Below are positions 1,721 to 38,803 of a stretch of DNA of 64,000 bases, piece after piece (the first letter of the stretch is position 1; each line of letters begins with the position of its first letter). The position numbers were made by a program, and so were the translations under genes. The notes beneath the pieces were generated by a model. That model was not told the DNA's origin. It searched no databases and was given only the letters and a program-made list of their open reading frames with translations. The stretch comes from Owenia fusiformis (lineage: Eukaryota > Annelida > Polychaeta > Sabellida > Oweniidae): assembly GCA_903813345.2 (NCBI GenBank), contig CAIIXF020000010.1, forward strand, positions 8,309,669 through 8,373,668, given 5' to 3'.

Positions 1721-4700
1721 CTGTTTCACAATCAGTTCCATTGTATCCCGGTTCACATGTACAGTTGTAGCCATTCACAAAATCAGAACAGTTACCTCCA
1801 TTCTGGCAAGGGGAGCTTTCACATTCGTTTATATCTACAAAAATGTGGATGCAATGATTGATCATAATGCCCGATGTATTATATCTTTCAAACGGCATTA
1901 TCTTATTAATGATAAAGTAGTTACCCGTTTCACAATTAGTTCCAATGAATCCTGGTTCGAATGTACAGTTATAGCCATTCACAAAATCAGTACAGTTGCC
2001 TGCATTCTAGCAGGGGGAGCTTTCACATTCATTTATATATATTATGATAAAATTGTTATTTGATCGTCGTCCCTGTCATACGTATATGAGTATCCTTAAA
2101 TTAGCATATTTGAAACAGTATATTTAATTACCTGTTTCACAATCAGCTCCAGTGAATCCTGGTTCGCATGTACAGTTGTAGCCATTCACCAAATCAGTAC
2201 AGTTACCTCCATTCTGGCAAGGGGAGCTTTCACATTCGTTTATATCTACAAAAATGTGGATGCAATGATTGATCATATCTTATTAATGATATAGTAGTTA
2301 CCCGTTTCACAATTAGTTCCAATGAATCCTGGTTCAAATGTACAGTTATAGCCATTCACAAAATCAGTACAGTTGCCTGCATTCTAGCAGGGGGAGCTTT
2401 CACATTCATTTATATATATTATGATAAAATTGTAATTTGATCGTCGTCCCTGTCATATGTATATGAGTATCCTTAAATTAGCATATTTGAAACAGTATAT
2501 TTAATTACCTGTTTCACAATCAGCTCCAGTGAATCCTGGTTCGCATGTACAGTTGTAGCCATTCACCAAATCAGTACAGTTACCTCCATTCTGGCAAGGG
2601 GAGCTTTCACATTCGTTTATATCTACAAAAATGTGGATGCAATGATTGATCATAATGCCCGATGTATTATATCTTTCAAACGGCATTATCTTATTAATGA
2701 TATAGTAGTTACCCGTTTCACAATTAGTTCCAATGAATCCTGGTTCAAATGTACAGTTATAGCCATTCACAAAATCAGTACAGTTGCCTGCATTCTAGCA
2801 GGGGGAGCTTTCACATTCATTTATATATATTATGGTAAAATTGTTATTTGATCGTCGTCCCTGTCATATGTATATGAGTATCCTTAAATTAGCATATTTG
2901 AAACAGTATATATAATTACCTGTTTCACAATCAGCTCCAGTGAATCCTGGTTCGCATGTACAGTTGTAGCCATTCACCAAATCAGTACAGTTACCTCCAT
3001 TCTGGCAGGGGGAGCTTTCACATTCGTTTATATCTATAATGACAAAATTGTCATTAGATCGTCGTCCCTGTCATACTATATGAGTATCCTTGCATTAACA
3101 TGTTTAAACCAGTAATTACCTGTTTCACAATCAGTCCCGGTGAATCCTGGTTCGCAAGTGCAGTTGTAGCCATTCACTAAATCAGTACAGTTGCCTCCAT
3201 TCTGACAGGGGGAGCTTTCACATTCGTTTATATCTATAATGATAAAATTTTAATTTGATCGTCGTCCCTGTCATATTATATGAGTATCCTTGCATTAACA
3301 TGTTTACGCCAGTAATTACCTGTTTCACAATCAGTCCCAGTGAATCCTGGTTGGCATGTACAGTTATAGGCATTCACCAAATCAGTACAGTTGCCTCCAT
3401 TCTGGCAAGGAGAGCTTTCACATTCATTTATATCTATAATATAAAAAGTGTCAATTGATCGTCATAGTCGAACTTAACATATTGTATGAGTATCCTTACA
3501 TTAGAATATTTAAAAGAGTAATTACCTGTTTCACAATCAGCTCCAGTGAATCCTGGTTCGCATGTACAGTTGTAGCCATTCACCAAATCAGAACAGTTTC
3601 CTCCATTTTGGCAGGGAGAGCTTTCACATTCGTTTATATCTATAATGATAAAATTGTCATTTGATCGTCGTCCCTGTCATATTATATGTGTAACCTTGCA
3701 TTAACATGTTTTCGCCAGTAATTTATTACCTGTTTCACAATCAGCTCCAGTGAATCCTGGTTCGCATGTACAGTTGTAGCCATTCACCAAATCAGAACAG
3801 TTTCCTCCATTTTGGCAGGGGGAGCTTTCACATTCGTTTATATCTATAATGATAAAATTGTCATTTGATCGTCGTCCCTGTCATATTATATGTGTAACCT
3901 TGCATTAACATGTTTTCGCCAGTAATTTATTACCTGTTTCACAATCAGTCCCAGTGAATCCTGATTCGCATGTACAGTTGTAGCCATTCACCAAATCAGA
4001 ACAGTTTCCTCCATTCTGGCAAGGAGAGCTTTCACATTCATTTATATCTATAATATAAAAAGTGTCAATTGATCGTCAAAGTCGAACTTAACATATTGTA
4101 TGAGTATCCTTACATTAGAATATTTAAAATATTAATTACCTGTTTCACAATCAGCTCCAGTGAATCCTGGTTCGCATGTACAGTTATAGCCATTCACCAA
4201 ATCAGAACAGTTTCCTCCATTTTGGCAGGGGGAGCTTTCACATTCGTTTATATCTATAATGATAAAATTGTTATTTGATCGTCATCCCTGTCGTATTATA
4301 TGAGTATCCTTTCCATAACATGTTTACGCCAGTAGTTACCTGTTTCACAATCAGTCCCATTGAATCCTGGTTCGCATGTACAGTTATAGCCATTCACCAA
4401 ATCAGTACAGCTACCTCCATTCTGGCAGGGGGAGCTTTCACATTCGTTTATATCTAAAATAATTTGGATGCAATAATTGTTCATAATGCCCGATATGTTG
4501 TGATGGTATCTTTAAAACAGCATATTTTAATAATTAAATCGTAATTACTTGTTTTACAATCAGTTCCAGTGAATCCTGGTTCGCATGTACAGTTGTAGCT
4601 ATTCACAAAATCAGTACAGTTGCCTCCATTCTGGCAGGGGGAACTTTCACATTCGTCTATATCTACAATAATATGGATGCAATAATTGTTCATAATGCCC

Positions 4701-7700
4701 GATATTTTGTAACTGTATCTTTAAAACAGCATATTTTAATAATTAAATGGTAATTACCTGTTTCACAATCAGTTCCAGTGAATCCTGGTTCGCATGTACA
4801 GTTGTAGCCATTCACAAAATCAGTACAGTTCCCTCCATTCTGGCAAGGGGAGCTTTCACATTCGTCTATATCTACAATAATATGGATGTTATAATTGATC
4901 TTATTCCATAATACTACTGTTTTCCCAGGGAAATATGAAGGAATAAAAATCGTATTGAATCGTGTTACATGAAAAATCGTATTGTTCCTGGGGAAAAAAT
5001 CGTATTGGATTGTATTACATCGTTTATATCTATAATATAAAAAATGTTAATTGACAATCTTGCCTGTCATATTATACGAATTTACTTGCGGGAACATATC
5101 TGTAACAGTTATAATTACCTGTTTCACAATCAGTTCCAGTGAATCCTGGTTCGCATGTACAGTTGTAGGCATTCACCAAATCAGTACAGTTGCCTCCATT
5201 CTGACAAGGGGAGCTTTCACATTCGTTTATATCTACAATAATATGGATGCAATAATTGTTCATAATGCCTGATATGTTGTAACGGTTTCTTTAGAACAGC
5301 ATGTTTTAATAATTAAATTGTAATAACCTGTTTCACAATCAGTTCCAGTGAATCCTGCTTCGCATGTACAGTTGTAGGCATTCACCAAATCGGTACAGTT
5401 ACCTCCATTCTGACAGGGGGAGCTTTCACATTCGTTTATATCTACAATAATATGGATGCAATAATTGTTCATAATGCCCAATATGTTGTGACGGTTATGA
5501 ATCTTTAAAACAGCATATTTTAATAATCAAATTGTAATTACCTGTTTCACAATCAGTTCCAGTGAATCCTGGTTCGCATGTACAGTTGTAGCCATTCACC
5601 AAATCGGTACAGTTGCCTCCATTCTGACAGGGGGAACTATCACATTCGTTTATATCTATAATATAGAAAAGTGTCAATTGATCATCTTGTCCGTCATATA
5701 CAGGGTGACCGGAAAAAAAGGAGACCATTGAAGTAATCAATTTCTCCTAAACTAGACAAGTGCCATCAATGAAATTTTGCATACACTGGAACAGTTATAT
5801 GGAAATTTGTTACTGAAGGTTTCAATACAAGCATTCAACTGGTTCAGGAGCTATGATCATTTACATAACATGCTCCAAATAGGCACAATTGAGACCAACG
5901 CAGAGTTGGATTCATATGGCAAACTACCCTTACATGTTCTGCCCTCTATGGCATTATTATGGCATTACATATAGCAGTGATTGCCTTCTTTAGGTCAACA
6001 ATAGTCTGAGGATTGTTTTGGTATAGATTGTCTTTCAAATATCCATACAAAAAGAAATCAGCAGGATTCAAGTCTAGGCTGTAATGGCAATGAAGGGTTA
6101 TCTGACATGTGGTTCATCATCCTGTTGCCAAAGTGCTGATTTACCCAATCTTAAGAGTCACTTTAGGTATTGGGCATAGTGCCATGTTACTAAAACCACT
6201 ATATGGCACAATTAAATCCAATATGGAAACCAAGGGCTGCCCAAAACCTCCTTAGGATGATACTGTAACTGAGTGGGACCACTGAGTCAGAAGCCATAGG
6301 TCAGATAAGCTTCGTCTCCATACACCTCAAATTTGAATCCACCTGATTTCTTTTTGTGGGGCAATTTGAAAGACAATGTGTACCAAAACAATCCTGAGAC
6401 AATTGCTGACCTAAAGGTGGCAATAAATGCTAAATGTAATGCCATAACAAGGTCGGAATATGTAAGGGTATTTGCCAAATGTATCCAGCTCTGCGTTGGT
6501 CTCAATTGCGCCTATTTGGAGCATGTTATTTAAATGATCATAGCTCCTGAACCAGTTGACTGCTTGTATTGACACTTTCAGGAACAAATTTCCATAGAAC
6601 TGTCCTGATGTATGCAAAATTTCATTGATGTCACTAGTCTATTTTAGGAGATATTGCCTATTTCAATGGTCTCCTTTTTTTCCGGTCACCCTGTATTATA
6701 TGAGTATACTTACATACTTATGGAGAACATATTTATAACAGTAATTACCTGTTTCACAATCAGTTCCAGTGAATCCTGGTTCGCATGTACAGTTGTAGGC
6801 ATTCACCAAATCAGTACAGTTACCTCCATTTTGGCAGGGGGAGCTTTCACATTCATTTATATCTATAATGATAAAATTGTCATTTGATCATCGTCGCTGT
6901 CATATTATATGAGTATTCTTGCATTAACATGTTTACGCCAGTAATTACCTGTTTCACAATCAGTCCTGGTGAATCCTGGTTCGCATGTACAGTTGTAGCC
7001 ATTCACAAAATCAGTACAGTTACCTCCATTCTGGCAAGGGGAGCTTTCACATTCGTTTATATCTACAATTATATGGATGCAATAATTGTTCATAATGCCC
7101 AATATGTTGTGACGGTTATGAATCTTTAAAACAGCATATTTTAATAATCAAATTGTAATTTCCTGTTTCACAATCAGTTCCAGTGAATCCTGGTTCGCAT
7201 GTACAGTTGTAGCCATTCACCAAATCGGTACAGTTGCCTCCATTCTGACAGGGGGAACTATCACATTCGTTTATATCTATAATATAGAAAAGTGTCAATT
7301 GATCATCTTGTCCGTCATATACAGGGTGACCGGAAAAAAGGAGACCATTGAAGTAATCAATTTCTCCTAAACTAGACAAGTGCCATCAATGAAATTTTGC
7401 ATACACTGGAACAGTTATATGGAAATTTGTTACTGAAGGTTTCAATACAAGCATTCAACTGGTTCAGGAGCTATGATCATTTACATAACATGCTCCAAAT
7501 AGGCACAATTGAGACCAACGCAGAGTTGGATTCATATGGCAAACTACCCTTACATGTTCTGCCCTCTATGGCATTATTATGGCATTACATATAGCAGTGA
7601 TTGCCTTCTTTAGGTCAACAATAGTCTGAGGATTGTTTTGGTATAGATTGTCTTTCAAATATCCATACAAAAAGAAATCAGCAGGATTCAAGTCTAGGCT

Positions 7701-10700
7701 GTAATGGCAATGAAGGGTTATCTGACATGTGGTTCATCATCCTGTTGCCAAAGTGCTGATTTACCCAATCTTAAGAGTCACTTTAGGTATTGGGCATAGT
7801 GCCATGTTACTAAAACCACTATATGGCACAATTAAATCCAATATGGAAACCAAGGGCTGCCCAAAACCTCCTTAGGATGATACTGTAACTGAGTGGGACC
7901 ACTGAGTCAGAAGCCATAGGTCAGATAAGCTTCGTCTCCATACACCTCAAATTTGAATCCACCTGATTTCTTTTTGTGGGGCAATTTGAAAGACAATGTG
8001 TACCAAAACAATCCTGAGACAATTGCTGACCTAAAGGTGGCAATAAATGCTAAATGTAATGCCATAACAAGGTCGGAATATGTAAGGGTATTTGCCAAAT
8101 GTATCCAGCTCTGCGTTGGTCTCAATTGCGCCTATTTGGAGCATGTTATTTAAATGATCATAGCTCCTGAACCAGTTGACTGCTTGTATTGACACTTTCA
8201 GGAACAAATTTCCATAGAACTGTCCTGATGTATGCAAAATTTCATTGATGTCACTAGTCTATTTTAGGAGATATTGCCTATTTCAATGGTCTCCTTTTTT
8301 TCCGGTCACCCTGTATTATATGAGTATACTTACATACTTATGGAGAACATATTTATAACAGTAATTACCTGTTTCACAATCAGTTCCAGTGAATCCTGGT
8401 TCGCATGTACAGTTGTAGGCATTCACCAAATCAGTACAGTTGCCTGCATTCTGGCAAGGGGAACTTTCACATTCGTTTATATCTATAATGATAAAATTGT
8501 CATTTGATCGTCATCCCTGTCATATTATATGAGTATTCTTGCATTAACATGTTTACGCCAGTAATAATTATCCGTTTCACAATCAGTCCCGGTGAATCCT
8601 GGTTCGCATGAACAGTTGTAGCCATTCACAAAATCAGTACAGTTACCTCCATTCTAGCAAGGAGAGCTTTCACATTCGTTTATTTCGTCAATGATACGGA
8701 TGCAATGATTGTTCATAATGTCCGATATGTTGTAATGGTATCTTTAAAACAGCATATTTTAATAATTAAATCGTAATTACCTGTTTCACAATCAGTTCCA
8801 GTGAATCCGGCTTCGCATGTACAGTTGTAGCTATTCACAAAATCAATACAGTTGCCTCCATTCTGGCATGGGGAACTTTCACATTCGTCTATATCTACAA
8901 TAATATGGATGCAATAGTTGTTCATAATGGCCGATATGTTGTACAATATCTTTAGAACAGCATGTTTTAATAATCAAATCGTAATTACCTGTTTCACAAT
9001 CAGTTCCAGTGAATCCTGGTTCGCATGTACAGTTGTAGCCATTCACAAAATCAGTACAGTTGCCTGCATTCTGGCAAGGGGAACTTTCACATTCGTCTAT
9101 ATCTTCAATAATATGGATGTAATAATTGATCTTATTCCATAATACTACTGTTTTCCCAGGGAAATACCATGGGCTTAAGCCCATGGAAATACGAAGGAAT
9201 AAAAATCGTATTGAATCGTATTACATGAAAAAATCGTATCGTTCCCTGGGATAAATTGTATTGGATCATATTACATCGTTTAAATCTATGATATAAAAAA
9301 TGTAATTTGACAATCTTGCCCGTCATATTATACGAGTTTACTTGTGGGAACATATCTATAACAGTTATAATTACCTGTTTCACAATCAGTTCCAGTGAAT
9401 CCTGGTTCGCATGTACAGTTGTAGGCATTCACCAAATCAGTACAGTTACCTCCATTTTGGCAGGGGGAGCTTTCACATTCATTTATATCTATAATGATAA
9501 AATTGTCATTTCATCGTCGTCGCTGTCATATTATATGAGTATTCTTGCATTAACATGTTTACGCCAGTAATAATTACCTGTTTCACAATCAGTCCCAGTG
9601 AATCCTGGTTCGCATGTACAGTTGTAGCCATTCACAAAATCAGTACAGTTACCTCCATTCTGGCAAGGGGAGCTTTCACATTCGTTTATATCGTCAATGA
9701 TATGGATGCAATAATTGTTCATAATGTCCTATATGTTGTAATGGTATCTTTATACAGCATATTTTAATAATTAAATCGTAATTACCTGTTTCACAATCAG
9801 TTCCAGTGAATCCTGCTTCGCATGTGCAGTTGTAGCTATTCACAAAATCAGTACAGTTGCCTCCATTCTGGCAGGGGGAACTTTCACATTCGTCTATATC
9901 TACAATAATATGGATGCAATAATTGTTCATAATGCCCGATATGTTGTACAATATCTTTAGAACAGCATGTTTTAATAATTAAATCGAAATTACCTGTTTC
10001 ACAATCAGTTCCAGTGAATCCTGGTTCGCATTTACAGTTGTAGCCATTCACAAAATCAGTACAGTTGCCTGCATTCTGGCAAGGGGAGCTTTCACATTCG
10101 TCTATATCTACAATAATACGGATGTAATAATTGATCTTATGCCATAATACTACTGTTTTCCCAGGGAAATATGAAGGAATTAAAATCGTATTGAATCGTA
10201 TTACATGAAAAAATTGTATCGTTCCCCGGGAAAAAATCGTATTAGATCGTATTACATCGTTTATATCTATGATGTAAAAAATATTAATTGACAATCTTGC
10301 CTGACATATTATACGAGTTTAATATGAAATTACCTGTTTCACAATCAGTTCCTGTGTATCCCTGTGCACATGTACAGTTGTAGGCATTCACCAAATCAGT
10401 ACAGCTGCCTCCATTCTGGCAAGGAGAGCTTTCACATTCATTTATATCTATAATGTAAAAAGTGTCAATTGATCGTTATAGTCGTACTTAACATATTGTA
10501 TGAGTATCCTTACATTAGACTATTTAAAAGAGTAATTACCTGTTTCACAATCAGCTCCAGTGAATCCTGGTCTGCATGTACAGTTGTAGCCATTCACAAA
10601 ATCTATACAATTACCTTCATTCTGGTAGGGGGAGCTTTCACAATTGATCATCTTGCCCGTCATATAATACGAGTTTACTTACATGAACATATTGTAGAGA

Positions 10701-13700
10701 ACACGTGTCTCTGTGTTCTCTGCTGTCAATCATTATTATACTCATGTGAAAGTCAGTTCAGGAGCTATGTTTAACTTTAGGGTTACTTTGTTCAAATTGG
10801 AGGTACTTCCTTGTCCAGTGATGTGATTGGTTTATCCATTGAACTGATTCACTAAACTGAACTTCATATACTGGGACAAAGAAGTAAAACTTCAATGTGT
10901 TTTCTAGCAGTTTTGGGGAGGGTTGTTTTCACATTCTAAATTTGGGTGGGCTTTTTGGCTTCAATTCACATAACTCACTATACTGGCTCGCTATACTGTA
11001 CATTAGGCTAGCTTGCTAGTCAGTCCAGCGAGTCCCCCTCCTGCTCCCCAAGATTCTTCACAATATTTATAACAGTAATTACCTGTTTCACAATTAGTTC
11101 CAGTGAATCCTGGTACGCATGTACAGTTGTAGGCATTCACCAAATCGGTGCAGTTACCTCCATTCTGACAGGGGGAGCTTTCACATGTATTTATATCTAT
11201 AATACAAAAAGTGTAAATTGATCATCTTGCCCGACATATTAAGATTATCCTTACATTACATATCTATAACAGTAATTACCCGTTTCACAATCAATTCCAG
11301 TGAATCCTAGTTCACATGTACAGTTGTAGGCATTTACCAGATCAGTACAGTTACCTCCATTCTGACAGGGGAAGCTTTCACATTCATTTATATCTATAAT
11401 ATAAAACAATTATCATATTTATGCAGGAAATATCACGACCAGTCAATAGAGCAGTTTATTCCCTCGTTGCCATTTGTAGCCGCGTATATATTGATAAAAT
11501 GTACCGTTTAGCACGTTATGTTTCTTAACACGACAACTCGTTGATTTTGGACTAGGTATGGGTTGTGGTCGCAACTTTATTTGTAAATACTAGCCTTTTT
11601 GTACACATGACAAGCTATTCAGCAAAAGTTGTGGCTGAGACACGTTGTAGTACAGTTCGGATGCTACATTGAAATTCTTGTCCGATTGATATCAAGGTGG
11701 TTTGTCACCATTAAAACCAAAGACACTACTTGACTGAAGTCAATGCCCTTTGGAAAGGAATGTAACCACCTCTCAAACTATCGGTTCCAGTCACAACCCC
11801 ATTTGATGGCAACACTGACTTTTTACAATTTTGTTAAAAATTGGAGTTGAGTGCTCGGCGACCAAGCCCAGCGTGATTCCTAAAGTCCTTAAATTCACAA
11901 AACGCCGATCACACAAAAAAATTCCGCTCAACTCGAACAGCACGCTAAGTCTTTTTATTATGAACATGCCTCTCGTCACTTCCCAGCAAACATAAAGATT
12001 TCTATAAAGATATTTATATTCTTAAATTGCTTCGCTCAAACGAATGTGATTAAAATTCTTATTTATTTTGTTCAATCATGAAGTTTTATGTTGACGATGG
12101 TTTGATATAATGTTGAAGACATCTGTGCTGTATGTACCGAGATATTCTGAAATAAAAATAGTAATCATCAATTCTGTTTACTTGTCATGGTTCTTTAACA
12201 CTTATTGATGGTGTACGTTACATCCTAAAATTAATGTTGTTGCCCCCCCCCCTCCAGTGCAGAAAGCAGATCGCTTATTTTTCAATTACCATATTCTAAA
12301 AACATGGCTTGACAAAAAATCACCTCTCGTTTTGCACCTAATGAAAGATGAAAAGCTTCATCTTCAATTATCATCTTCAGATGGAGAGAGCATTCAGATG
12401 GCAAAATATCACCACTTATATGCAAACTGAATAGTCATCTAAAGATGTAGTTGGTACATACCTAATCCATGGTTTGAAATTCCTAGGACGCCTAATGAAG
12501 GAGCTGATAATACAATATAGTGCAGCGATATTTGACCTTATATTTACATACCCATACTACATAAATGTCCAGTATTGTTTTTTTATAGCTGTTCAACATT
12601 CTTCAGGCTTTTAGAATGAATTATGCATGTCACTAGCAGGGGTCAAAAATATTAGTAAAAACGAAATCCCTCTTTTTACAATTTGGAGTACATGATGCCA
12701 CAGAAAATTATATGAAATAGACTTTAGTGTATGTTTAGGTTTCTCAACTATAGATTTGACGTATTTCACTCAGAAATACAAATAAATAACGTAATCAGCA
12801 TATCAAAATATTGAATTGTTTCTTCAATATTGGTAATGTAAAGTATATGAATGAAATATGCTAAAATTATAGTAGTTTTCTAAATAGTCGGTCTGAATAC
12901 GTTTTGAGATATTAATCATTTAAGTAATTACACTAATTAACCACTGGGAATTGCATTGAAATTAAAATTAATTTTGACATAATGATAATCCAATTTATTG
13001 TAAATATGGTTAAATTAACGTCTTGGGTCTTAAAATGTTCAATGATACTGCACTATCTTTTGTTACGGTTTCTTCATGTTCCGGAGTCATAACAGGGCCT
13101 TACAGCAAGCACGGTCTTACAAGGCATATACACATGTCACCACTTGTTGCACCAATTGTGAGGTGAGATAGCTATATGTTAGATTCCATCCACAGATGCA
13201 GATAGTGCAGCAAAAGGGCTTTACAAGACATTATAACGACAAAATATCACCGCCTGTTTGGAAAACGGAAGATATATATCTACGATTCATATTCATGAAG
13301 TTGGTACTTCTGGCAAACAAAACGACACCACCTGTTTGCACACATAAATAGAACAGACTGAAAAATCGATCCTAGTGTGAGTCCTTTAAATCGTTTTCAA
13401 GATAACCAAAATTGACTTAACTCTGTAACGAGTAGGTTATCACCAGATCTATTTTAATTCAATCAAATCACAATTCCAGGTTACGTTGTATTGTATTTTG
13501 TTTACCACCAATGAAGGTGAGCAATACCTCTTGGGTATGTCCCGTATATATACGGTCGTAATTTACGTAATTAACATGGAAGATAGACCCAGAAACCCCT
13601 CCTTGAAGGAGCCCTGTGTTCTTTTATGTGCACTTATACATAGACATATAAGTACACACCACAGCCTTTTTGTACGAGTTGCAGACCACTCAGTCAAACA

Positions 13701-16387
13701 CCCTGAAGTACTTCACGCAAACAAGCAAATTTAGTCTTGCCTGAACCGGGGATCGAATCCGGGACCTATTGCGTAAGAGGTACCTGCGTTACCGCTGAGC
13801 TACACGGGTGGACGTTAAATATTAACAGTGCTTCAAATGCTAACGCGTAAGCTTGCTGCGTAGAATTGCAAAAATATAAAGGAATCATGCTCAATAAGAG
13901 AGGTAGAAAAAGAGCAACAACTTTTGTGTCGTTTAATTACAATTAGATCACTTCACGAATTGACTGCTTACCCGTTTCACATAAGGTCCCTGTATAACCT
14001 GGTGGACACTGACAGGTATTCTTTGGATCATCACCATCACTGGATCTGCTACTGCTTCCACTGCCTCTACTGCTTCTGCTGCTGCCTGTGTCCCCTCCAC
14101 TGCTTTTGTCCCCTCTGCTTTTATTCCATCCTCTGCCTCTGTTCCCCTTATTACCTCTATTTATGTTGCCTCTATTCCATCCGTTGCCCCTATTCCTTCT
14201 ACCCCAGCGGGAAAGGGTGGCCCGATCATGCCTCGTTCTAACACATGTACCGCCGTTCTGACACGGCTCACCCCTTATGCAGGGATCCTCCTCTAGTAAA
14301 CGAGCAACGTTAAGTTTAGCGTTGGTTCTAAGAATAATCTGTACATAATGTTTCTTGCAATTTACTCATCAAATCACACACGAAAGAAAATAATAAAATC
14401 TGTTTCAAGTGATCCTATCAAATAATGGGTATAACCAGACGACTTCACGTTTTGGTAATTGGAATATTGATAAGTAAATCGTAAAAAATCATGATTTGCT
14501 GTCAGATAGTGGTCTATTATTTATGTCATCGGGTTTTTTGTTATAAAGACGTAGCTTCGTTATTACCAGGCGGGGAACATTGAATCGAGTGCATGTAGCC
14601 CTGGCACAGTCCCTATATTTGGTTTTGTTTAATGTGTATATTATATGAGGGTTTTGATATCGGTTATTACGATAATGGATGCATGTCTTGATTGTATTGC
14701 CTTTTAGTAAGAGAATTAAGAAATCTACATACCACTTGATGAGTCGTCAGAGGAAGAATGGGTATTATCAGAGCTAGAGCTACTAGTATCTGAAACAATA
14801 CAATAGGTCTATTTAAAATAATGTATATACTTGATAACTTGGTGTTATTTTGGGCACAATTTTTTATTGCTCAGAATCCAATGCTATGATATTTTTTGTT
14901 TTCTAGTGGATGTTTAAATAAATATAACAAATATTTTGAAGACATGACACAATTCTGATAACTCCTAAAGGCAAGATATGACATGTATACGACATAATGA
15001 AGTCAGGATCCAAAATAGGCAAGGGGTCAAGTGGATATTATCCTGCTATTTAATTAACAAGCAGGTCTTGTTCAAAGCGTCGTCCTTACACAAAGCTTTT
15101 ATTTCAAAACAACATTTTCGAAGAAACGATAAAAATTTTACCTCATGGACATGGATTCATGTTTTGTATTCAAATCTGCGAGGTGCATTATGGTTTCATA
15201 ATGAGCTGAACAATATGATTTTATAAAGAAGTGATAATATTATTGAACTACAATAAAGAATCCCGTATCATTCTTTATATTGGAATTTAAAGCAATACTA
15301 AGTACTAACCCATTCTGGTAATGTACTCGGGCTCCGCCCTCGTTCATGATGTGTACTTGTTACTACAGGATTCTTATTCCTTAGATAATGATTTTGAAGA
15401 CATGACTTTTTAAAAGTACAGCGTTAATTTAAAAAATGACATTATTTTGAAGATATTGACGCGACATTACTTTCAAGACGTGACAATGTTGCAATATTTT
15501 GTAAACATTTACATCATTTTGAATTTATAGCAGTGATGACAAAAAAGACAAGCTGACAACTGATTACCCGAAGAATCTGAAGGATCAGTTGGGCACACGT
15601 CACGTTGACAAGTACGCTGCTGCCGTGATATCCCTTCACATTGATCACCACCGCCACTTGGACGAGGATTGTTACACTGTCTCGTTCTTTTCTGAATACC
15701 TCTACCACACGTTACCGAACAGCTTTCCCATGTCTCCCAGTCCGACCAACCTCCATTCACAACGTGTCGTTCCTCGCTTGAGCTGTCAGATTCACTACTT
15801 GACCTGCCCCAACTTCTCCGGGCTGAAAAGCAAGATCAGATTTTTGAGATGTTTTCAAGAGACATTCCATGATCATATCAAATAATTCCCTTTCTTAGAT
15901 TACAGCTTGATGTGACGACTTCGATATAATTTTTCTTGGGAAATGCTTTTAGCTGTTGTGTCTTTAATGTTTGTTTAATGTTTGAGACTGCGCCTCAATC
16001 ATCACTTAGAAAGAAAAATCGCTGTCAATATATGAAATGTGATTTTCGAAAATGAAAAATTATGACCGAAGAATGATAAACACGAAAGACTACTCACCTC
16101 AACACATAAATGTATCGGAGCATAGAAATAAGATTGTGAGCAATTCAATACGAAAGCCAGTGATGTTAGCATTTATTACAGATTGTAAAACAATTAGGTA
16201 AATAAATGAAACTCTAACATGTCTAACGATAAAAAGCAATTCAAAAAGTGTGTTACTAGTATTCACCTCTATTCCCACGTCTATCTACCCTCTGTTGTCG
16301 ACCCGAACTACGCCCAAAGCAGTAAACATCATTAATCAGCTCCAAACTTATGAAAACTAAGAACACATATCTGAAGAGTTGTCTCAT
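1721..16387 (-). CDS. Secreted/surface multi-EGF protein with N-terminal TSP1 domain (3' end not found)
   Basis: The model joins exons in consistent phase 1. Exon 1 (16267-16387) encodes a signal peptide; 15568-15822 a TSP1 domain; 14733-14789 a Ser-rich linker; 13972-14292 an EGF with a large insertion; then 34 exons of 114 bp, each one cbEGF domain of about 38 residues, between 11393 and 1721. Typical repeat order is [18 protein letters not shown](L/F)[17 protein letters not shown] with six cysteines. Intact exon starts (low coordinate): 1721, 2132, 2509, 2920, 3120, 3320, 3526, 3730, 3934, 4140, 4340, 4549, 4758, 5119, 5328, 5542, 6749, 6949, 8369, 8781, 8989, 9375, 9786, 9994, 10334, 11083, 11280. 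Such EGF strings occur in Notch-like, fibropellin-like and matrix proteins; TSP1 followed by EGFs fits a secreted or matrix protein. No transmembrane segment was found. Because every array exon is phase 1-1, skipping any of them keeps frame. The exact orthologue is unknown. Confidence 0.82.
1925..2038 (-). pseudogene. Dead EGF exon (type A, copy 1)
   Basis: The copy has the exon length and most of the EGF sequence, but the CAG after Cys2 is a TAG stop, Cys5 is Phe, and the AG of the acceptor is AT. The donor (GTAACTAC) still looks usable. It cannot be spliced in as a normal EGF domain. It belongs to a live-dead pair that was duplicated three times between 1925 and 2826. Confidence 0.8.
2302..2415 (-). 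pseudogene. Dead EGF exon (type A, copy 2)
   Basis: Same three defects as the copy at 1925: TAG after Cys2, Cys5 to Phe, and no AG at the acceptor. The intron beside it is about 35 bp shorter than in the other two pairs (the ATGCCCGATG segment is missing near 2277), which marks it as a separate duplicate. Confidence 0.8.
2713..2826 (-). pseudogene. Dead EGF exon (type A, copy 3)
   Basis: Third copy of the same dead exon, with the TAG after Cys2, Phe for Cys5, and an AT instead of AG at the acceptor. The defects are shared, so they arose before the duplications. Confidence 0.8.
5701..6693. mobile_element. Fold-back Tc1/mariner derivative, copy 1
   Basis: Ends are inverted repeats beginning CAGGGTGACCGGAAAAAAAG, flanked by TA on both sides (5699-5700, 6694-6695), the Tc1/mariner target duplication. 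The left and right arms of about 350 bp are imperfect inverted copies of each other. Both arms carry the C-terminal part of a mariner transposase: plus strand at 6333 reads [20 protein letters not shown], and the minus strand near 6060 reads [29 protein letters not shown]-like remnant of the second catalytic Asp region lies near 6130. It cannot make transposase itself. Confidence 0.88.
7163..7276 (-). pseudogene. EGF exon with broken donor site
   Basis: The domain is intact with all six cysteines, but the donor reads GAAATT instead of GTAATT. Its twin at 5542-5655 in the duplicated block has a normal GTAATT donor, so the change followed the duplication. The exon is probably skipped, which would not shift the frame. 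Confidence 0.6.
7322..8313. mobile_element. Fold-back Tc1/mariner derivative, copy 2
   Basis: Nearly identical to the element at 5701, with one fewer A in the left terminal A-run. It was copied as part of the 1.62-kb tandem duplication, not by transposition, because the flanking EGF exons and introns match too. Same TA flanks and same two transposase C-terminal remnants in opposite orientation. Confidence 0.88.
8572..8685 (-). pseudogene. Dead EGF exon (type B)
   Basis: The exon has a TAG at the same CAG codon after Cys2, its donor starts AT instead of GT, and its acceptor ends CG rather than AG. Unlike type A copies it keeps Cys5. It resembles the neighbour at 9578, with which it shares the GTCAATGATA intron end. 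Confidence 0.75.
9167..9186. other. Perfect 20-bp palindrome in an EGF intron
   Basis: CCATGGGCTTAAGCCCATGG is self-complementary over its full length. The related introns near 4925 and 10160 read straight from CCCAGGGAAATA into TGAAGGAAT, without it. It is therefore a local insertion of about 26 bp in one intron copy. Confidence 0.75.
9578..9691 (-). pseudogene. EGF exon with broken acceptor
   Basis: All six cysteines and an open frame are present and the donor is normal, but the acceptor reads TTGACG rather than TTGTAG. No other AG close by would keep the frame and Cys1. It is likely skipped. The same CG acceptor occurs in the dead exon at 8572. Confidence 0.55.
10540..10641 (-). pseudogene. 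Degenerate, 5'-truncated EGF exon
   Basis: This copy keeps the donor and Cys3 to Cys6 but Cys2 has become Tyr, and the start of the exon with Cys1 and the acceptor is replaced by unrelated sequence (AATTGATCATC). It is a relic that cannot make an EGF fold. Confidence 0.75.
11394..13485. other. Intron of the EGF gene, no coding signal
   Basis: This AT-rich stretch separates the EGF exon array from the insertion-bearing EGF exon. The phases on both sides agree, so no exon needs to be missing. I saw no domain, tRNA or transposon ends apart from a C-run at 12242-12251. Confidence 0.5.
13486..13815 (-). mobile_element. Possible tRNA-derived SINE
   Basis: On the minus strand 13815-13742 resembles a tRNA: GTAGCTCAGCGGTAAC fits the A box and GGATTCGATCC fits the B box of RNA polymerase III promoters. 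The cloverleaf is imperfect (weak D and anticodon stems, one T-stem mismatch), so it is unlikely to be a working tRNA. About 250 bp follow in the same direction and end in an AAACAAAATACAATACAA tail, as expected of a SINE. No target duplication was confirmed. A lone tRNA pseudogene is the alternative. Confidence 0.45.
13972..14292 (-). CDS. Exon 4 of the TSP1/EGF gene: EGF domain with a 75-residue RGN/RGS insertion and RGD
   Basis: The exon begins [17 protein letters not shown] and ends [16 protein letters not shown], which are the two halves of one EGF domain with six Cys. Between Cys3 and Cys4 there are 75 residues instead of the 8 found in the array domains. The insertion is basic and low in complexity: repeated RGN and WNRG units, then KSRGDKSSG, then Ser/Arg-Gly runs ending in SSDGDD. 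The reading frame stays open for all 321 bp with good splice sites (TTTACTAG acceptor, GTAAGC donor). The bases are GGN/AGN-rich unlike the neighbouring EGF exons, so the insert probably grew by repeat expansion. The RGD tripeptide is a known integrin-binding motif but is not proven to act as one here. Confidence 0.75.
14733..14789 (-). CDS. Exon 3 of the TSP1/EGF gene: short Ser/Asp-rich linker
   Basis: A 57-bp exon, 19 residues, nearly all Ser, Asp, Asn and Thr, between a TTTCAG acceptor and a GTATGT donor. It joins the TSP1 exon and the insertion-bearing EGF exon in phase 1 without a stop. It has no domain of its own and probably acts as a flexible linker. Confidence 0.65.
15568..15822 (-). 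CDS. Exon 2 of the TSP1/EGF gene: thrombospondin type 1 repeat
   Basis: This exon is flanked by a good TTTTCAG acceptor and a GTAATC donor and reads in phase 1 on both sides. It encodes an Arg/Ser-rich lead then a full TSP1 repeat: [28 protein letters not shown] and DVC supply the three stacked Trp and six Cys. WxxWxxW is the known C-mannosylation pattern and CSVTCG the known TSR O-fucosylation pattern. The repeat is followed by PTDPSDSS, leading into the Ser-rich exon at 14733-14789 (DTSSSSSDN...). Confidence 0.88.
16267..16387 (-). CDS. Exon 1 of the TSP1/EGF gene: signal peptide
   Basis: The ATG at 16387-16385 opens a reading frame starting [20 protein letters not shown], a basic start followed by a hydrophobic core, then VYCFG and an Arg/Ser/Gly-rich tail. 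This is a typical secretory signal peptide. The exon ends in phase 1 at a GGTGAA donor, which matches the phase 1 acceptor of the TSP1 exon at 15822. It is the first exon of the model because no upstream coding exon is needed. Confidence 0.75.
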
Positions 16388-21853: not shown

Positions 21854-24739
21854 CTATAATGATGAATGTCCTAGAAAATGAGATGTGGCTACGGTGGAAA
21901 CATCTATCGTTTCATTTGTAACATTATGCCAAGGAGGTAGGCATGGACATTGACAGTTTGGGGCGCCTACTGGGTTGAATGCCAGTTCCATTATTGTCAC
22001 GTGGAGAAAATAGGCAACCACAGCGACCAATACCTGAAACATCAACCACGAAAAGCAATTACAGATCAGGGCAAAACAACAATTCTAATGAACAGGAACA
22101 GGATGGGAAAATAGAGGCTGTCTCACCACGGTGTAAAAATACGGCTATACAATGCAGAAATATAATTTAGGTTTAAGTATCTTTGAGGATTTTACAAGTA
22201 AGCTTTGTATTTTGGCACTATGTGACGTGGTCGGGATTTGCAGAGGGGATCGAATTGTTGGCATTTGTTGCACACTTACAGATATAAATGTTTCCCTCGT
22301 TATGGTAAAAAGCTTCCATCCGGTAAATCCAATACCTCCGTTTAACTTCTCAACAAACACACCAATCTAAAATGAAAAATAAAAAGGTGAATTATTTCTT
22401 CCTTGTTTTCCTTCATTCGTTGCCAAGGAACAAGAAACAACATCAGTAAGAGTGCACATCGCCATGGTGCGACCTGGACGAACTGCGAATGAGATAACAT
22501 ATTGGGGACTGCTTATGGACGACTAGTAGTTTAACCCGTTTCACTACTTTTGGTTTGATAGGTGAAATTACGAATTATTATACAGAGGGCAAAATGATGT
22601 AGAATAACTTGCAATAATTCGCTTTTTAATCTAGCGATTAAGTCGTTATTATATCTTGAAATAGTAGTCTATAGTAATTATTGAGCACGTCTGTAATGTT
22701 TTTCCCGGGCGTTTTCATGCTTTCTGATTGTTTCCTGATTGCATTCCAAGGATCGGCATTTTTATCTAAGGTTGCATGGTAATAGAGGTCTGTACGAAAA
22801 CCAACATACTTGCGCCATCTTGTTGAAAGACACTTGGTCCTCGTGAATCGTTAATTCATGAAGATAATTTAGTGGTTCTCCGCCCTAGAAATAATTATTT
22901 TGGCATATTGTAAATGGTTTTAAATTTTAGCAACAATCCTGTAAGATTGCAATTGGTGTACATGTGAATTAATATAGACAGAGGTCGGAGTTCATTTTGG
23001 TCTTCTGTTTATTTGTATTTATCTGTTGCAATTTGTATTTCTTATGAATAAATAATTGAGAGATATCTATAGTTTGCACGCACCGCTTCATTCAACATGG
23101 ATGCGCACCATGTGACAACGAGGAAGCGGCCTAACGTAGCGACCAACCACGCCCCTTCCATGATGGGATAGATAGGATCCTTCCACCGATGTAGCTCAGC
23201 TAGCAGATTGTACATGACAAAGATCATGACAACAGCATCGGTTGTGTAGACGATGACGGTGTTGAAGTTAAACAAACTGTCGGCACGATTCACCAACCCA
23301 CATATCTTGTTATGGGCACGACGAAACTGTTCCATATCACCTAAAGTATTCAAAATTGTTAACCATTCTTAAAATTGGTGGAAGGTGAAATAGACAATCA
23401 AGAGTAAATGTGACCTGGTACATGTGATTTGAAGTGAATATCGCAGCTCTATAAATGATATTAGCTATCTTAACATAAATGATGACTTGTAGTTATGTCA
23501 AACTTAAAAGAAAATGTAAATGGCAGACTGACATTTGTTAACAAGAATTACGATTGATAAAACTACAAAACGTGTGTATAAACTGGTATCAACATGATAA
23601 AAGATAAGACATATAAACAAACCGTCGAACGTTCCATCTTCACTCGTAGCAAGCTTGAACTTCTTAGTGAACCGTGCGAACTCCTCTTTCAACGTTATAC
23701 AAAACAAAATAAATAAACAGGTGGAGAACGCCCAAGCAAGAGTACAGCTGACCGTAATTACAGAATGGAAAACGCGAATGAACGCAGGAAACGTGTCATT
23801 TCTACCATAAAATGGTAAGAATTCGAATTCGGAGTTTTGACCGTTGGTATTTATCCAAAAACCAACGAGAACTGTGTGTCCAATTGTAACAAGAACAGCA
23901 ACTATGACATAAATCTTAGACCATACTGTCAAGTGTGTGCGATAAGATAAATCGTCCCTATTGGACATATGGTGATAACACTCCTTGAAAAATTCTGGGA
24001 TGTGCATGGCCGTATAGTAACATGTAGTGGCCCCCAACGCAGCCTGAAGAAAGAATATATGACGACAGATCCTAAAGAAAAGCCCGGGTCCATACCAGCT
24101 ATGTGAGGTATATACAGCGAAATAACGCACGAAGTTGGCCCATAGAAGTATAATGATAATCACTGAATAAACCTTTGAAATTGTGATATGCCTGGCTTTG
24201 CCTCCTCTCTCGCCACTGTGGAAAAGACCGAACGCTCGCATGGTTGTAAGGAGAGGTCGCAAGGCATTGTATAACGATGTAGGACTATTCTTATAATTCG
24301 ATCCCATTGCAACTTTAGTTTCCTTAGAAAACAATTCATTCATATACAGTGACTCGGCATCATTATATTGCAATCCAACTTTCTTTTCTTTTTGACTGCC
24401 TTTAATTTCAGTCGACCTTCTCTTTACGGTATCGTCTTGACAATCAAATGATCCCAGCGGGGATTCAATGACAACGGAATTCGGTCGAGATTTTCGGAAT
24501 ATTGCTTTAGCATCTTTACGTTGGACGAAACTGTCCTGGTCCTGGATTTGTAACAGGTCTATATCATTATCAGTACGGTCATTGTTATTGAGGTAATGCT
24601 TTTTATGACGCAGTACTCCCTCCGGCGTGTCCAGTGCCGTAACGTCAACAACCACTCTTGCTTTCGGAATGTATACATTTTCCTTCCATTTCATCTGGGA
24701 CATTGCAGTAACATTTGTATCTTCCTCTGCCGTTGACAT
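21854..24739 (-). CDS. Gustatory-receptor-like seven-TM protein, copy A
   Basis: Five exons: 23623-24739, 23084-23340, 22810-22884, 22280-22366, 21854-22033, total 571 residues. Intron 1 is phase 1 and the last three introns are phase 0; phase-0 introns near the C-terminus are a known mark of the insect Gr/Or superfamily. About 190 hydrophilic residues lead into hydrophobic helices (YSVIIIILLWANFVRYFAVY, IYVIVAVLVTIGHTVLVGFW, LAWAFSTCLFILFCITL, then two in exon 2 and one in exon 5). Family-like segments include LKEEFARFTKKF and MEQFRRAHNKICGLVNRADS before TM5-6, and GFTGWKLFTITRE before the last helix. The tail after the last helix has CQCPC and NVT/NET sequons, which implies an extracellular C-terminus as in insect Gr topology. 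The insect TYxxxxxQF motif is not present as such. Ligand unknown. Confidence 0.82.
22450..22565. mobile_element. Fragment of a MITE related to 41229-41818
   Basis: This intronic stretch shares GGTGCGACCTG, ACGAACTGCGAA and TTTGGTTTGATAGG blocks with the element at 41.2-41.8 kb. It looks like a partial, diverged copy. Confidence 0.4.
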
Positions 24740-26162
24740 GTCTGTAACCTAATGTATCTTTTTTGTCTACACTTTGTAGACTGTTCTAATATTTCATAAC
24801 ATTGACAGTATGTCCCGGTTTTTCATAAGTGGTGTAACACTAATGTTGTCAACCTGACTGCGAAAATACATTCAAACCATGCTCATATACTTTTTGCTTG
24901 TCTTTATTTATAAATTGTATCAATAAATATACTTCATATACAATATTTAAAACTTGTAAGTACAGTACTTATCTATAAGTACATACAAATTACAAATTGT
25001 TAAAGATCACTTAGTTAAAATAACACTGCTTAATTTAGAGATAAACATACAGTTCTCTTCGTAAGTTTCGTAACGATAACTTTAAAAATTTAAAACGGCC
25101 TGTCTATTTCACCAAACCTGAAAGACATCTAAAAGCCGTTTACGTTTTTGTAGAAAATAACTGACCCTGCACTACACTTGCCACACCTTAAATTAGTAAT
25201 GGAGGTCTTTACCAAAACCAACCATCTTGGTATCGTTAATTCATGAAGATGATTTAGTGATATGGCGCGCCCTGGAAATAATTGTTTTGGTTTATATGGT
25301 GAACCATATAAACACGTACTTTGATGAGGAAAGTCGGCTTTTTTATTTAACTTATGGAGGTGTCGATACGTTTACGAGATAAGAATATGATATGATTACA
25401 CTCTCAATGTAATTTATAAACATTGTTAAATACATAATTATGATCGTACGTTGGACTTGATAGTTGCCTATCTATCAATAATATGAAGGTTAAGTTACAT
25501 GTTTTTAAGAGAAGCAATACGAGGGCGTGTAATATTTCGACCCCCGGGGATTACTGTCCCGCTCTCAATTCACTTTTCCAGGAACCTCTAAATACAATTA
25601 TTTCCTTGCGCTTTATACTAAATCGGCCAAGTTAACATAACAAATGGGATAACTAATCCAGACTACACGTTCACGTACAGGTTATAAAAAACTTGGATCT
25701 TAACCTCCATAATTTCTCACGAACCCACATGTACGTACAGTGAAGTTCAACAATTTGTCACCTCAACGGAGACTGATAAGATCTGAATGCCACTCTTTAT
25801 AATGTATTTTGAAGAACATCGTTTACAAAGTCAATGTTATTCAACAAAATAATAACTAACAGCCATGAAAATACACATAAAATAATAGACGTTTTTTTTA
25901 TCAATAGATACAGGGTATCCTGTACGTGTAACTGTAAACGTGTAAAACTGATCTGACAGAGAATTCAACAATCATAAAACTGAAATTTTCATCAGTTAAC
26001 TATGTTTAGTTATAGAGGAAAGCTCGACTCGGACATTGACATTGATGTCGTGTTTACATTTTGTAACACACACAGTGCATACAGCATTGTGATTGTATTT
26101 TTCCTAGAGGTAGTGGTAGCTTGCTATTGTGCGACGACAGTGATAGAGTTATTGTCACCATT
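24740..26162. other. Intergenic region between GRL copies A and B
   Basis: Holds the promoter of copy A, the 3' flank of copy B and one relic GRL exon (25199-25290). No other coding exon is visible. Confidence 0.5.
25199..25290 (-). pseudogene. Relic of a GRL exon 3
   Basis: On the minus strand, after a TTTCCAG acceptor, the sequence reads GGCGCGCCATATCACTAAAT and CATCTTCATGAATTAACGAT, matching the start of exon 3 of copy A (CTAAATTATCTTCATGAATT at 22875). The second half of the exon is missing: it jumps to CCAAGATGG and then to intron sequence (TTGGTTTT, AAGACC) matching that after exon 3 of A. The frame has a TAA at once. It is the trace of a third tandem gene or an aberrant partial duplicate. 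Confidence 0.7.
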
Positions 26163-29100
26163 CTAGTACAATGATGCCTTGGTTGTAACATCTAAAGTGG
26201 CGTTTGTTGTATTGTGCCAGGGGGGTAGGCATGGACACTTGCAGTTCGGTGCAGCTACAGGGTTGAATGCTAGTTCCATGATTGTAACGTGTAGGAAGTA
26301 TGCAATTGTAGCCACGCATACCTGAAAAATGTTATTTATCATTATACTCGATAAGTATTATACATAAGTGAAACCTGTGTATTCGAATCTCTCGCTGTGA
26401 ACACTTTTTCGCCTCATTTTTTTACTTACATGTTAAAAATCGCAATGTGAACATTTGGTAATTTGAACACTATTTGTCGGTACCAATGGTGTTGGATAAG
26501 AGGTTTTACCGAACACACTCCAAATCATTGCGATTCGATTATCAGCAGGTTGAACAAGGAGTTGCTATCCTATACTCTGCAGAAACCGAAGGTATACATA
26601 ACAAATAAACGTCATATTTGACGTTATTTGACGTATGTACCGAAATTGATATATGAAAACATACGATATAAAATCTTTGAGATTGAGAAATGATAAACAT
26701 ACTGAGACAATGGTTTCCCTTGTTATGGTGTAAAGTTTCCACCCAGTGAAGCCAATGCCTCCATTCAACTTCTCTACGAAAACGCCAATCTGAAAATAAC
26801 AACAATACACAATTAAACTAATAGTATAATTAAATATAATGTAATTTGTAATATCCACACACAATGGCTCATTGGCGGAGCCATCGTTACCACTGTCGCT
26901 TGGCCCCGGATTCGATTTACGGTAAAGACAAAAAAAAGTTACATGCATTATGTAATGCTATGTGTTTGGCTAAGTGGTCCAAAAGTCGATTACCAGGTCA
27001 AACTCATGATATTCATATAATCTTTCAAAAACCTTATCAAGAATATTCATTCAGTGAATACAACAACGAGGATGGAATATTTGTTTTTTTTATTCAGTTT
27101 ATTCTATTGCAAATTATCATTTCAAAATACAAATAAAAGTAGAGGCTGTACTTTACAGTATTAATAGCCACGTTGAAAATATGAGTTTATGGAATCAGAG
27201 ATGAAAATGTTGCTTTTTAATTATTTTTTCATAATTATTCATCCGACTTTTTACATTATTTACAGCATCATAGCCGTAGCCAGCGGGGGTTCGGTGGGTT
27301 CGAACGAACCCCCGGTCAGGATTTCCCAAAATATAATTTTGCGGGAAAATGCATATAACCAGAATCATTAAATTACTGTGCTATTTGAAAACTACATATA
27401 TGAGCAGTAAATGAATTGATATTTGTTATGGTGAACACGATAGCATTATTTTCTTAAAAACACTGGCCCGTAGCCAGAATTTTCCAAGGGGGGGTTTGTT
27501 TTTCTAAAAAATTCTAGGGGGGGGGGGGGGGGTTCACTTTGGCAAATATGGCCAAAAATCACTCAAAAATTAGTCAGAATGGTGAAAAACTGCATGATTT
27601 TCAAAGAAATTTTGGCCCCCCCCTTGGCTACGGGCCTGAAACATGTCATAGTGAAGTTACACTTCCCTCAGAACGTTTGGCATGCTTCATCTCGGACAAA
27701 ATAACCCATCTTGGGCAATGGCTAAATCAGTCCTTTATAGGAATTTTGTTTTAAGCCAGTTCTGGTCCAATACGAAGTTATTGAAAGTTATTGAAAACAA
27801 TGCAGACGTCCCATACTCCGAATGATTATTACAACATTGGCGATAAATATCTGGAATAGTCGTAATATTGATAAAACACATGTTCTTTCAAATGTGTACA
27901 TCTCTGTTTTGTTTTATTTCGATTAAAATTTAAAATATTTCTTGGGGCGTCCCTGGGGCTGGCAAGTCCCCGAAACCAATTAGTAATTAAAAACGTTGTG
28001 AAATGAATTATTTAAAAGCGTATATCATTTATAAACACAAGCATTTGTTCAAATTCATTCATTCTTTCATTTGTTCAGTATTAATTTACCCATCACTTTC
28101 CAAATTTTTTTCAGATACACTCCAATCATCTAAGAGATTGTATAGAATTCAAATTGTTATCGTTCCAGTTTACTTGCTCTCCATTTTCATGTTAATGTCA
28201 TGATATGTTTAGCGAATAAATAATATAATAAAAAAAAACATTGAAAAATTATATGGTATTAATCTTCAAATGATGAAGGCCTAATTTGTTATCAAGCCGT
28301 CTGAACTTAACAAAATAACAGTCCTTGTATTTATATATAATTTTATCCACTAAAACGTTTTTATTATCAATTGCGGTTGATCTGCTCTGGGGGACTTACC
28401 ACTGAGCTCCGATGACGTCCAAAGAAATATTTTTAACTTTTTAAAACAAAGCATAACCGAGACCCACTTATTTGAATAATAGATATTTTCATCAGTAATA
28501 CGACTATCCCAGATAGTTTATAAAGCCTTCGTGTAAACGTTGTGAAAAGTTATCAAAAAAGAACGATCTTTCGGAGTATAAGGTGTTTGCGTCAATTTCA
28601 ATAACCAAGTGCATTTGATCCGAACTGGCTTCCAACAAATTTCCTGAAAAATAATGATAAGCCATTGCATGAGGTGATTTATTTTGTCCTAGATGAAGTA
28701 GCTTAAGTTAAAGAATAAATTGTGCGAAATAGTTGATATTCCTTGGAAACAAATCATGCTCCAGGGTCTTCCAGAAATCAGTCGAAATAATGGTGGATTC
28801 GGGGCAAATCAGATTTCAGGATATGTATTCAGTAAAAGATTCACCGAAGTATATTTTGATGCAGAACATTAATTATAAGTTGTCTGACTTTTTTGCACGT
28901 TGCCTGTTTATTTTACTTTGTGAACATTAAAGTTGCAAAGCTACAAGGTCATTTTTGAAAATCATTTTTACGTCCAGACTTTTCTCATGTCATTCCTTGT
29001 CATGTCTATTTTCTAAAAATCACAACAGTGCATACTTTATTCCAGGAAAACTAAAGATTTTTACAAAAATGTATTATTTTTCTATAAGAATGGTTACCAT

Positions 29101-31764: not shown

Positions 31765-32529
31765 TATTGTTCCTACTTGTTTATCATGTGAATCACATGT
31801 ACGTTGCAGCAGTTGTTATGACAACGTCGTTCATACCAGTAGCAAACAGGTAACTAAGTCAACAGTTACAATGAATGAACACTTTTGGAGTTCAATATCA
31901 ATTTTAAACAAGCTCCTAACCAGAACAATCATCTACGCTAGTATTGTTTTCCAAAATGATCATTACTGAGCCACTGCGTCACACAATTATGTGAACTTCA
32001 ATGCACGTAGCTCAGCTAGTTAACTAAATAAAATAATGATTTAAATAACACGGATTCACGAATAGAAACTATTTCAAATGCGAGACAAAAACAGCATATT
32101 ATTAATCAATTAATATATATTTCTCAAGTAGTCACTCCTTTCATATTATCTTATACCAGAAATAGACGCACTGTATAGATAGCACACATTTTGACTGTTT
32201 AGATACAATGAAATGCAAGTAAATTGATTTCAAATACATTGTATTGTAGTCATTAACCTAAATGTTTACACCATTTATTTATATTGTCTTGATATAAATT
32301 AATTGTGCTGTTATCATAAGAATTGTATAAATAAACAACTGAAGAATTAAGAACAAATCATTTTGTAACTTATCCCGACACCATTATTCGGTTAAATAAA
32401 AATGAAGAGATTTAACAAGATGCCTAACTAAGATATCTAACTATGCCCATGATCTTGAGATTTACCGTGTGCTCTAACTGTATAAACTAATTATAGTTGG
32501 TATGTGAACATATTTGAAATACATATATA
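31765..32529. other. Upstream region of GRL copy B
   Basis: AT-rich, no coding exon seen. Should contain the promoter of copy B; no motif is clear enough to mark. Confidence 0.4.
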
Positions 32530-33891
32530 CAGGGTGGGCCAAAAAAAACTTTTGCCTAAAGAACAATTGCCTATTTCTACCTAATTTTAGTAAATTACAA
32601 CATTGTCATGAGTCTTTCATAATTGGATATTATATATTGTTTTCATACAGTTTTTGAACCTTGCATGTTCAATATACATGTGTATCCTTATAAAACTAAT
32701 TCATTTCTTCTTCAGTCTGTCCAAAAATAGCTCAATAGACCCACACCCCCCCCGGACCCATCCTCTGATTGGATTATTCGCTTAAGACACGGAAGCCATT
32801 GGTTGATGGCATAATTGATGGATGTATGCGGAAGTACCTTTCAACTACTAGTTATTCTTTTTTTTAGTTCCTCTACATCCCTGATAGGCTGGGTATATTT
32901 AAATACCAACTGTTCTAGATGCCCCCAGGTATGGTAATCAACATTATTGGCAACTGGACTGCCAGTAAGCCATTTTTCTGGGCTAGAGATGGTGACATTT
33001 CGAATCTCCAAAAACTCCATGGTAGCATTGGACCTGTGTGATGGAGCACTGTTCTATCAGAAAATGAAATTTCTTTCACATGTTTTTTATATTCTTGAGG
33101 AGTCCTTTTTACCACCTCATGTCATTAACATTCAGAGTATATTTTTGCTCCTGGTTCAAAAACAGGGCCTGTATGGTCTTTCCTTTTTGGGAAACACCGA
33201 GTGGACACCACCTACCTTTCAGAAAAATGTCATCTCGATTTGAGTAGCCTTTTATCGCAAAAGTCACTATTCTTGCTTACTGATATAGAGTATATAGCCT
33301 TTTGATTACATGTATAGTACTTGGGGCATTTAGAACAGTTGGCCTATGGATATCCCTAGACCATCAGGGGTGTAGACAAACAGAAAAAAGGAATAATTAG
33401 GTGTTGGATGGTACTTCTGCAGAGGTCCATCAATTATACCAATGGCTTTAGCGTTTTAAGCGAGAAATCAAATCAGAAGTTAGGTCTGGGGGTGAGTCTA
33501 TTGAGCCATATTTGGACAGACTGAGGAAGAAATGAATTAGTTTTATAAGCATACACATGTATATTAAGCATGAAAGGTTCAAAAACTGAATGAAAACAAT
33601 ATATAATATCCAACTATGAAAAACTCATGACAATGTTGTAATTTATTAAAATTTGGTAGAAATAGGCAATTGTTCGCAAAATCGACGGAAATTGAAAAGG
33701 TGTTTTTTGACCCCCATGTCACACAAATGATTATATCTCAAGCCAGAGTTGTTGAAAATTGTTCTATTATATATCATTTTGTTGCAAATTAAATTATCTT
33801 TAAAATGATATATCATTGTTGGTGTGCATGTTAAAAATTGAATATTTATCAGAAATATTGGCTAGGGGGGTGGTTTTTTTGGCCCACCCTG
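32530..33891. mobile_element. Fold-back Tc1/mariner derivative, 1.36 kb
   Basis: Ends are CAGGGTGGGCCAAAAAAA inverted repeats flanked by TA (32528-32529, 33892-33893). Arms of about 350 bp, ending near 32880 and starting near 33390, are inverted copies of each other (for example CATTGTCATGAG at 32604 and CTCATGACAATG at 33625). Between them on the minus strand is a mariner transposase C-terminus, broken by frameshift: around 32900-32990 it reads VDYHTWGHLEQLVFKYTQPI then REL-type KKRI. Different family from the 5701 element but the same build. Confidence 0.85.
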
Positions 33892-33946
33892 TAGATCTGT
33901 TGGTATGATGTTAGGGTAAGTTTTGAATAATAAAATAAATGTCGAG

Positions 33947-38619: not shown

Positions 38620-38803
38620 ATCAATAAGGTTAAGTTACATATTTCACATTTCCTGAGGCTTTTATACATATTGCGGTATTCTTTCAGAAATTTCAGTGAG
38701 TGGTCAAAGATATTGTACAGTGCAGCATACGATACCGGCCACCAATCGGCCCACCGAAAATGCCAACATTTCAAATGAATAACAAGAACACAAATGTGTA
38801 CAA

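Follow-up and report, generated by a model that had tools for sequence, protein, structure and literature searches.

The window analysed here is a 64,000-nucleotide stretch of the Owenia fusiformis genome (contig CAIIXF020000010.1, C10:8309669-8373668; negative positions lie to the left of its start). Its main feature is a long array of EGF exons in which exon copies appear to have been gained and lost within a single gene:

1721..11393, minus strand: array of 34 EGF exons, each 114 bp and phase 1-1, of which 27 are intact in splice sites and coding sequence (consensus scan, profile search)

When the reverse strand of the entire window was scanned without gaps against a 114-bp consensus, with up to 32 substitutions allowed, 34 hits and no other were obtained, the outermost lying at 11393..11280 and 1834..1721. 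The same 34 exons were recovered with nhmmer over positions -50000..22000, together with an intact exon outside the window (-16999..-17111) and a weak partial match at -29502. Thirty-four matches this good are far beyond chance, and the count equals the 34 phase 1-1 EGF exons recognized in an earlier sequence-only reading of this DNA. The EGF assignment is supported by a score of 75.7 bits against PF00008 for a three-domain consensus query, compared to a Pfam cut-off of 21.5.

Each exon encodes one EGF domain, and both of its boundaries lie between the first and second bases of a codon. Because every exon is 114 bp long and in phase 1-1, any of them can be omitted while the frame is kept, as had been proposed. 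Indels were found in none of the 34 exons, and 29 of them combine six cysteines with the absence of a stop; exon 8572 also has six cysteines but contains a stop. The 33 introns had been described as near-identical, which holds only in part: they are homologous and align in blocks, as expected for a tandem array of symmetric exons, but they range from 56 to 1093 bp, have several types of end sequence and contain inserted elements. Introns 4, 8 and 18 (10107-10334, 9102-9375 and 4871-5119; 226-272 bp) carry a common inserted stretch, which provides a marker for ordering the block duplications.

Seven exons are damaged. Five are dead, i.e., with lesions in both coding sequence and splice sites, and two have only a broken splice site, in agreement with the numbers given in the sequence-only reading:

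1925..2038, minus strand: dead exon with TAG, Cys5 to Phe, and acceptor AG to AT (consensus scan)
2302..2415, minus strand: dead exon with TAG, Cys5 to Phe, and acceptor AG to AT (consensus scan)
2713..2826, minus strand: dead exon with TAG, Cys5 to Phe, and acceptor AG to AT (consensus scan)
7163..7276, minus strand: splice-broken exon with intact coding sequence, donor GT to GA; its near-twin 5542 keeps GT (scan, alignment, tree)
8572..8685, minus strand: dead exon with TAG, acceptor AG to CG, and donor GT to AT (consensus scan)
9578..9691, minus strand: splice-broken exon with intact coding sequence, acceptor AG to CG as in its sister 8572 (scan; tree, pair support 96/89)
10540..10653, minus strand: dead exon with Cys2 to Tyr and a lost acceptor, CA in place of AG (consensus scan)

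Coding lesions, i.e., a stop or a lost cysteine, are present in none of the 27 exons that have both splice sites and in five of the seven splice-broken ones (p 7.5e-5). The confinement persists when the trio 1925, 2302 and 2713 is counted once (p 0.002) and when 9578 and 8572 are also counted once (p 0.0009). The dead exons look tolerated, as had been suggested, because no exon that keeps both splice sites has a coding lesion, and the lack of indels in the dead exons indicates that their death is recent. Among the 29 exons free of coding lesions, the proportions of synonymous (pS) and nonsynonymous (pN) differences were 0.213 and 0.044, respectively, giving a pN/pS of 0.21.

These data bear directly on the possibility that the whole array, or the whole gene, is a decaying pseudogene in which lesions fall at random. 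Such decay would account for damage in seven of the 34 exons and would agree with the retroelement-like insertion found beyond the array, ahead of the next EGF exon. However, all 27 exons with intact splice sites lack coding lesions, and random decay explains neither the absence of indels nor the low pN/pS. A whole-gene pseudogene was rejected because of this ratio and because coding lesions are confined to splice-broken exons, and we regard it as very unlikely; the array is not simply a pseudogene.

The order in which exons died can be followed in three copies of a four-exon block:

9348..10171, minus strand: four-exon block B1 (block alignment)
8345..9166, minus strand: four-exon block B2 (block alignment)
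4120..5084, minus strand: four-exon block B3, whose exon 4340, the counterpart of 9578 and 8572, keeps its AG acceptor (scan, alignment)

B1 and B2 (9166-8345) are the closest, with 34/821 mismatches (4.1%). B3 differs more from both, with 60/950 mismatches (6.3%) relative to B1 (10321-9368 with 5084-4133) and 60/815 (7.4%) between B2 and B3 (4935-4120). At the third exon position, B3 has an intact copy (4340), B1 a copy in which the acceptor alone has changed, to CG (9578), and B2 a copy that combines the CG acceptor with the TAG and a lost donor (8572). The sister relationship of 9578 and 8572 in the tree suggests, as the simplest order, that the acceptor would have been lost after B3 had split off, that the block was then duplicated, and that the TAG and the donor loss followed in one of the two copies. 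In this lineage splice loss preceded coding loss. In exon 7163, too, a splice site was lost while the coding sequence stayed intact. The order of exon loss is rarely visible; here its stages are frozen side by side, i.e., intact in 4340, acceptor lost in 9578, and stop plus donor loss in 8572.

Dead exons were also copied again together with living ones:

1899..3036, minus strand: live-dead exon pairs (alignment; trio support 100/100)

Pair 3036-2687 differs from 2625-2276 by 4 mismatches in 350, and pair 2654-2276 from 2277-1899 by 4 in 379, so that the pairs are about 99% identical. The TAG, the Cys5 to Phe change and the lost acceptor that had been noted as common to the trio were read in all three exons, which form one clade (100/100). 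Since the trio is one clade and the pairs are near-identical, the unit was copied after exon death. The proposed duplication of the live-dead unit is thereby confirmed, and it took place twice.

Another recent event is visible as a pair of tracts in the middle of the array:

7162..8441, minus strand: 1280-bp tract without mismatch (one indel) to 6821-5542, with an element copy at 7321-8313 inside (alignment)
5542..6821, minus strand: partner tract, with a second element copy at 5700-6693 inside (alignment)

In an alignment of 8902-6941 with 7284-5320, 51 mismatches are present in 1959 columns. None lie within 8441-7162; 39 are on one side of it and 12 on the other. The element inside is 993 bp long and has inverted ends, and its halves are about 84% alike in inverted orientation. 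Genome-wide, the 40 copies scored out of 338 candidates are 99-100% identical. The element is thus a very young family, and its identity within the tract is uninformative on its own. With the element removed, 287 consecutive mismatch-free columns remain, as compared to a longest run of 234 in 20,000 random placements of 51 mismatches over 966 columns. A recent local, conversion-like exchange explains the tract better than a plain 1620-bp tandem duplication, which was disfavoured as a source because identity would then span the full period. The first of the 12 mismatches, at position 7161, is the donor lesion of exon 7163. Since it lies directly outside the mismatch-free tract and the next mismatch is at 7070, this lesion is probably later than the exchange.

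The same tract is also what an assembly artefact might produce, i.e., assembling or polishing that created, merged or homogenized copies. One pair of tracts is free of mismatches over 1280 bp, and short-read polishing of a young repeat with this many nearly identical copies is a possible source of such a pattern. On the other hand, the other block copies differ by 1-7%, with differences that are spread out, and no second copy, haplotig or duplicate contig of the array was found in the assembly when it was searched with 1300 bp of the array. This search returned 26 matches, the strong ones only at the array and at the exon 17 kb away; the others were 69-81% identical over 66-146 bases. For the published O. 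fusiformis assembly (PMC9977687), PacBio reads with an N50 of about 26-31 kb are described, which exceeds the 9.7-kb length of the array and counts against an artefact if that assembly is the one used here. The layout of Forkhead genes fits O. fusiformis: 38 matches fall on nine large contigs and include two tandem groups, as compared to nine of 12 chromosomes and foxQ2 tandem groups on two of them in that species (PMC9539403), although the chromosome numbers differ from those in that paper. We consider an artefact unlikely.

For comparison, we counted two other arrays of the genome with one EGF domain per exon, on contigs C3 and C8. In C3:9745001-9765000 all 15 exons are intact, and no extra copies were found at E-values up to 0.01. 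In C8:29453501-29475500 the 15 full exons are free of coding lesions; a divergent but intact EGF and six dead, truncated remnants are also present. Four of the six remnants share sequence and lie 276-288 nt after a live exon, and three of these four share both stops. The four alike remnants come from one duplicated unit; dead exons were therefore copied again in a second gene too. Two matches in C8 were not scored as damaged: full exon 29471318 lacks the usual AG and has an in-frame ACAG six bases further in, and partial match 29457906 is an intact but divergent EGF. The idea that the C10 array is unusual in having dead exons (7/34 versus 0/27 full exons of two other arrays, p 0.012) was dropped, since C8 has the six truncated remnants. 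Two further sets were kept out of the counts: C9, where four of 13 matches read with stops and domains are not one per exon, and C12, where seven of eight profile matches have a complete six-cysteine pattern and its own profile was not used. The genome-wide EGF search scored the best 150 of 2219 candidates and gives no genome rate. Re-amplification of dead exons is found in two independent arrays of the genome and is absent in a third.

The explanation that we consider probable is tandem exon duplication with birth and death of exons, in which splice-broken exons are skipped and then decay. Growth would come from unequal exchange among near-identical exons with a single EGF each, involving one to four exons each time, and conversion-like exchange would partly homogenize the array. 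An exon that loses a splice site would be skipped with the frame unchanged; judged from the sequence, skipping in the RNA is the likeliest outcome for the splice-broken exons. The coding sequence of a skipped exon would then be free to decay, and the decayed exon may be copied again along with its live neighbours. Splice loss may have come first in the other dead lineages as well, and, as had been suggested, the number of EGF domains may vary between individuals and transcripts.

Several observations weigh against this explanation. The three lesions of the trio are common to all its copies, and their order cannot be told. The C3 array is without dead exons (0/15), so these are not universal. 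A polishing error could in principle create single-base splice lesions, although CG and AT acceptors each occur in more than one copy. Relative to the consensus, nonsynonymous and synonymous changes number 22:12 in the dead lineages, taking one exon per lineage, and 65:85 in the 27 intact exons (Fisher 0.035); this difference speaks for the explanation, but shared ancestry of the exons was left in the comparison and the contrast is weak. Finally, an in-frame AG lies 39 nt inside all seven splice-broken exons, as it does in live exons, and in-frame GTs occur near the donor, leaving room in principle for inclusion of shortened exons. Use of the damaged exons in shortened form would draw on such sites, which are available in 7/7 of them; in the trio the AG even lies past the TAG and leaves an open remainder of 75 nt. 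That remainder, however, encodes half an EGF with an odd number of cysteines, and the presence of the same AG in live exons means that nothing marks it as selected. Shortened use therefore appears highly improbable.

A broader form of tandem duplication with exon death would be that splice loss always comes first in arrays of symmetric exons, the coding part being able to decay only after the exon has become invisible to splicing. Silent exons would then be re-amplified as passengers, such arrays would store up dead exons, and the protein would vary widely between individuals in its number of EGF domains. We regard this generalization as doubtful. The process itself is already known in kind, from domain-repeat growth and from the kringle IV type 2 (KIV-2) repeat of LPA, and the array is a further case. 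Domain repeats expand by internal tandem duplication, and EGF junctions are enriched in linkers (Bjorklund et al., 2006; PMC1553488); that study compares proteins and, as far as consulted, does not deal with dead exons. For LPA KIV-2, nonsense and splice-site variants within repeat copies have been described (PMC6314250), and a 5.6-kb unit is present in 1 to more than 40 units per allele in people. Both LPA KIV-2 and the present array are exon-bearing tandem repeats within one gene with near-identical copies. Unlike in LPA, a single 114-bp exon and its short intron make up the unit here, which is known from one assembly. A literature search found no paper on dead EGF exons re-duplicated within an array, which is not proof of absence. 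The sharper point of the present case is that the order of events is visible and that 27 intact sister exons provide a control within the array. Such an array offers a way to examine whether coding sequence decays freely once an exon is skipped, and whether a structural protein varies in its number of repeats; should it offer the event order alone, it would be a good example for teaching rather than a new system.

The array is flanked by further exons, probably of the same gene, two of which lie upstream within the window:

13972..14292, minus strand: probable upstream exon, 321 bp, phase 1-1, EGF with a long Gly/Asn/Ser-rich loop (splice sites by eye)
15568..15822, minus strand: probable upstream exon, 255 bp, phase 1-1, thrombospondin type 1 domain (splice sites by eye)

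In the first of these, a Gly/Asn/Ser/Arg-rich insert sits between the third and fourth cysteine regions. A series of exons downstream (about -18900 to about -61900) encodes calcium-binding-type EGF domains, one to three per exon; one of these exons was checked with Pfam. We infer that the array is the EGF part of one large gene for an extracellular protein on the minus strand, with the flanking exons probably in the same transcript; the basis for this membership is agreement in strand, phase and domain type. The best PDB matches of the three-domain consensus query were chains of Delta-like 1 and Notch 1/2. Unlike in Notch and Delta-like proteins, the upstream neighbours of the array are thrombospondin type 1 and long-loop EGF exons, and multi-EGF exons follow it. 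In Notch receptors, LNR repeats, a transmembrane segment and ankyrin repeats come after the EGF repeats; the examination here covered EGF, thrombospondin type 1 and multi-EGF exons.

Between about -1200 and about -10850, two identical 96-aa frames at a distance of 9.35 kb enclose a long pol-like frame. By eye, this looks like a young long terminal repeat (LTR) retroelement that divides the array from the EGF exon following it (about -17000). At about -17940, a short exon candidate apparently ends at a GC donor (ACAG then GCAAGA), also by eye.

On the minus strand, 23504-24748 and 30559-31815 hold two related frames, each about 415 aa long and containing hydrophobic stretches. No Pfam family scored above cut-off for either; presumably they resemble gustatory-receptor-like proteins. 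The plus strand carries a separate gene at 18354-20000 that has exons for CUB and LDL-receptor class A domains and points away from the array.
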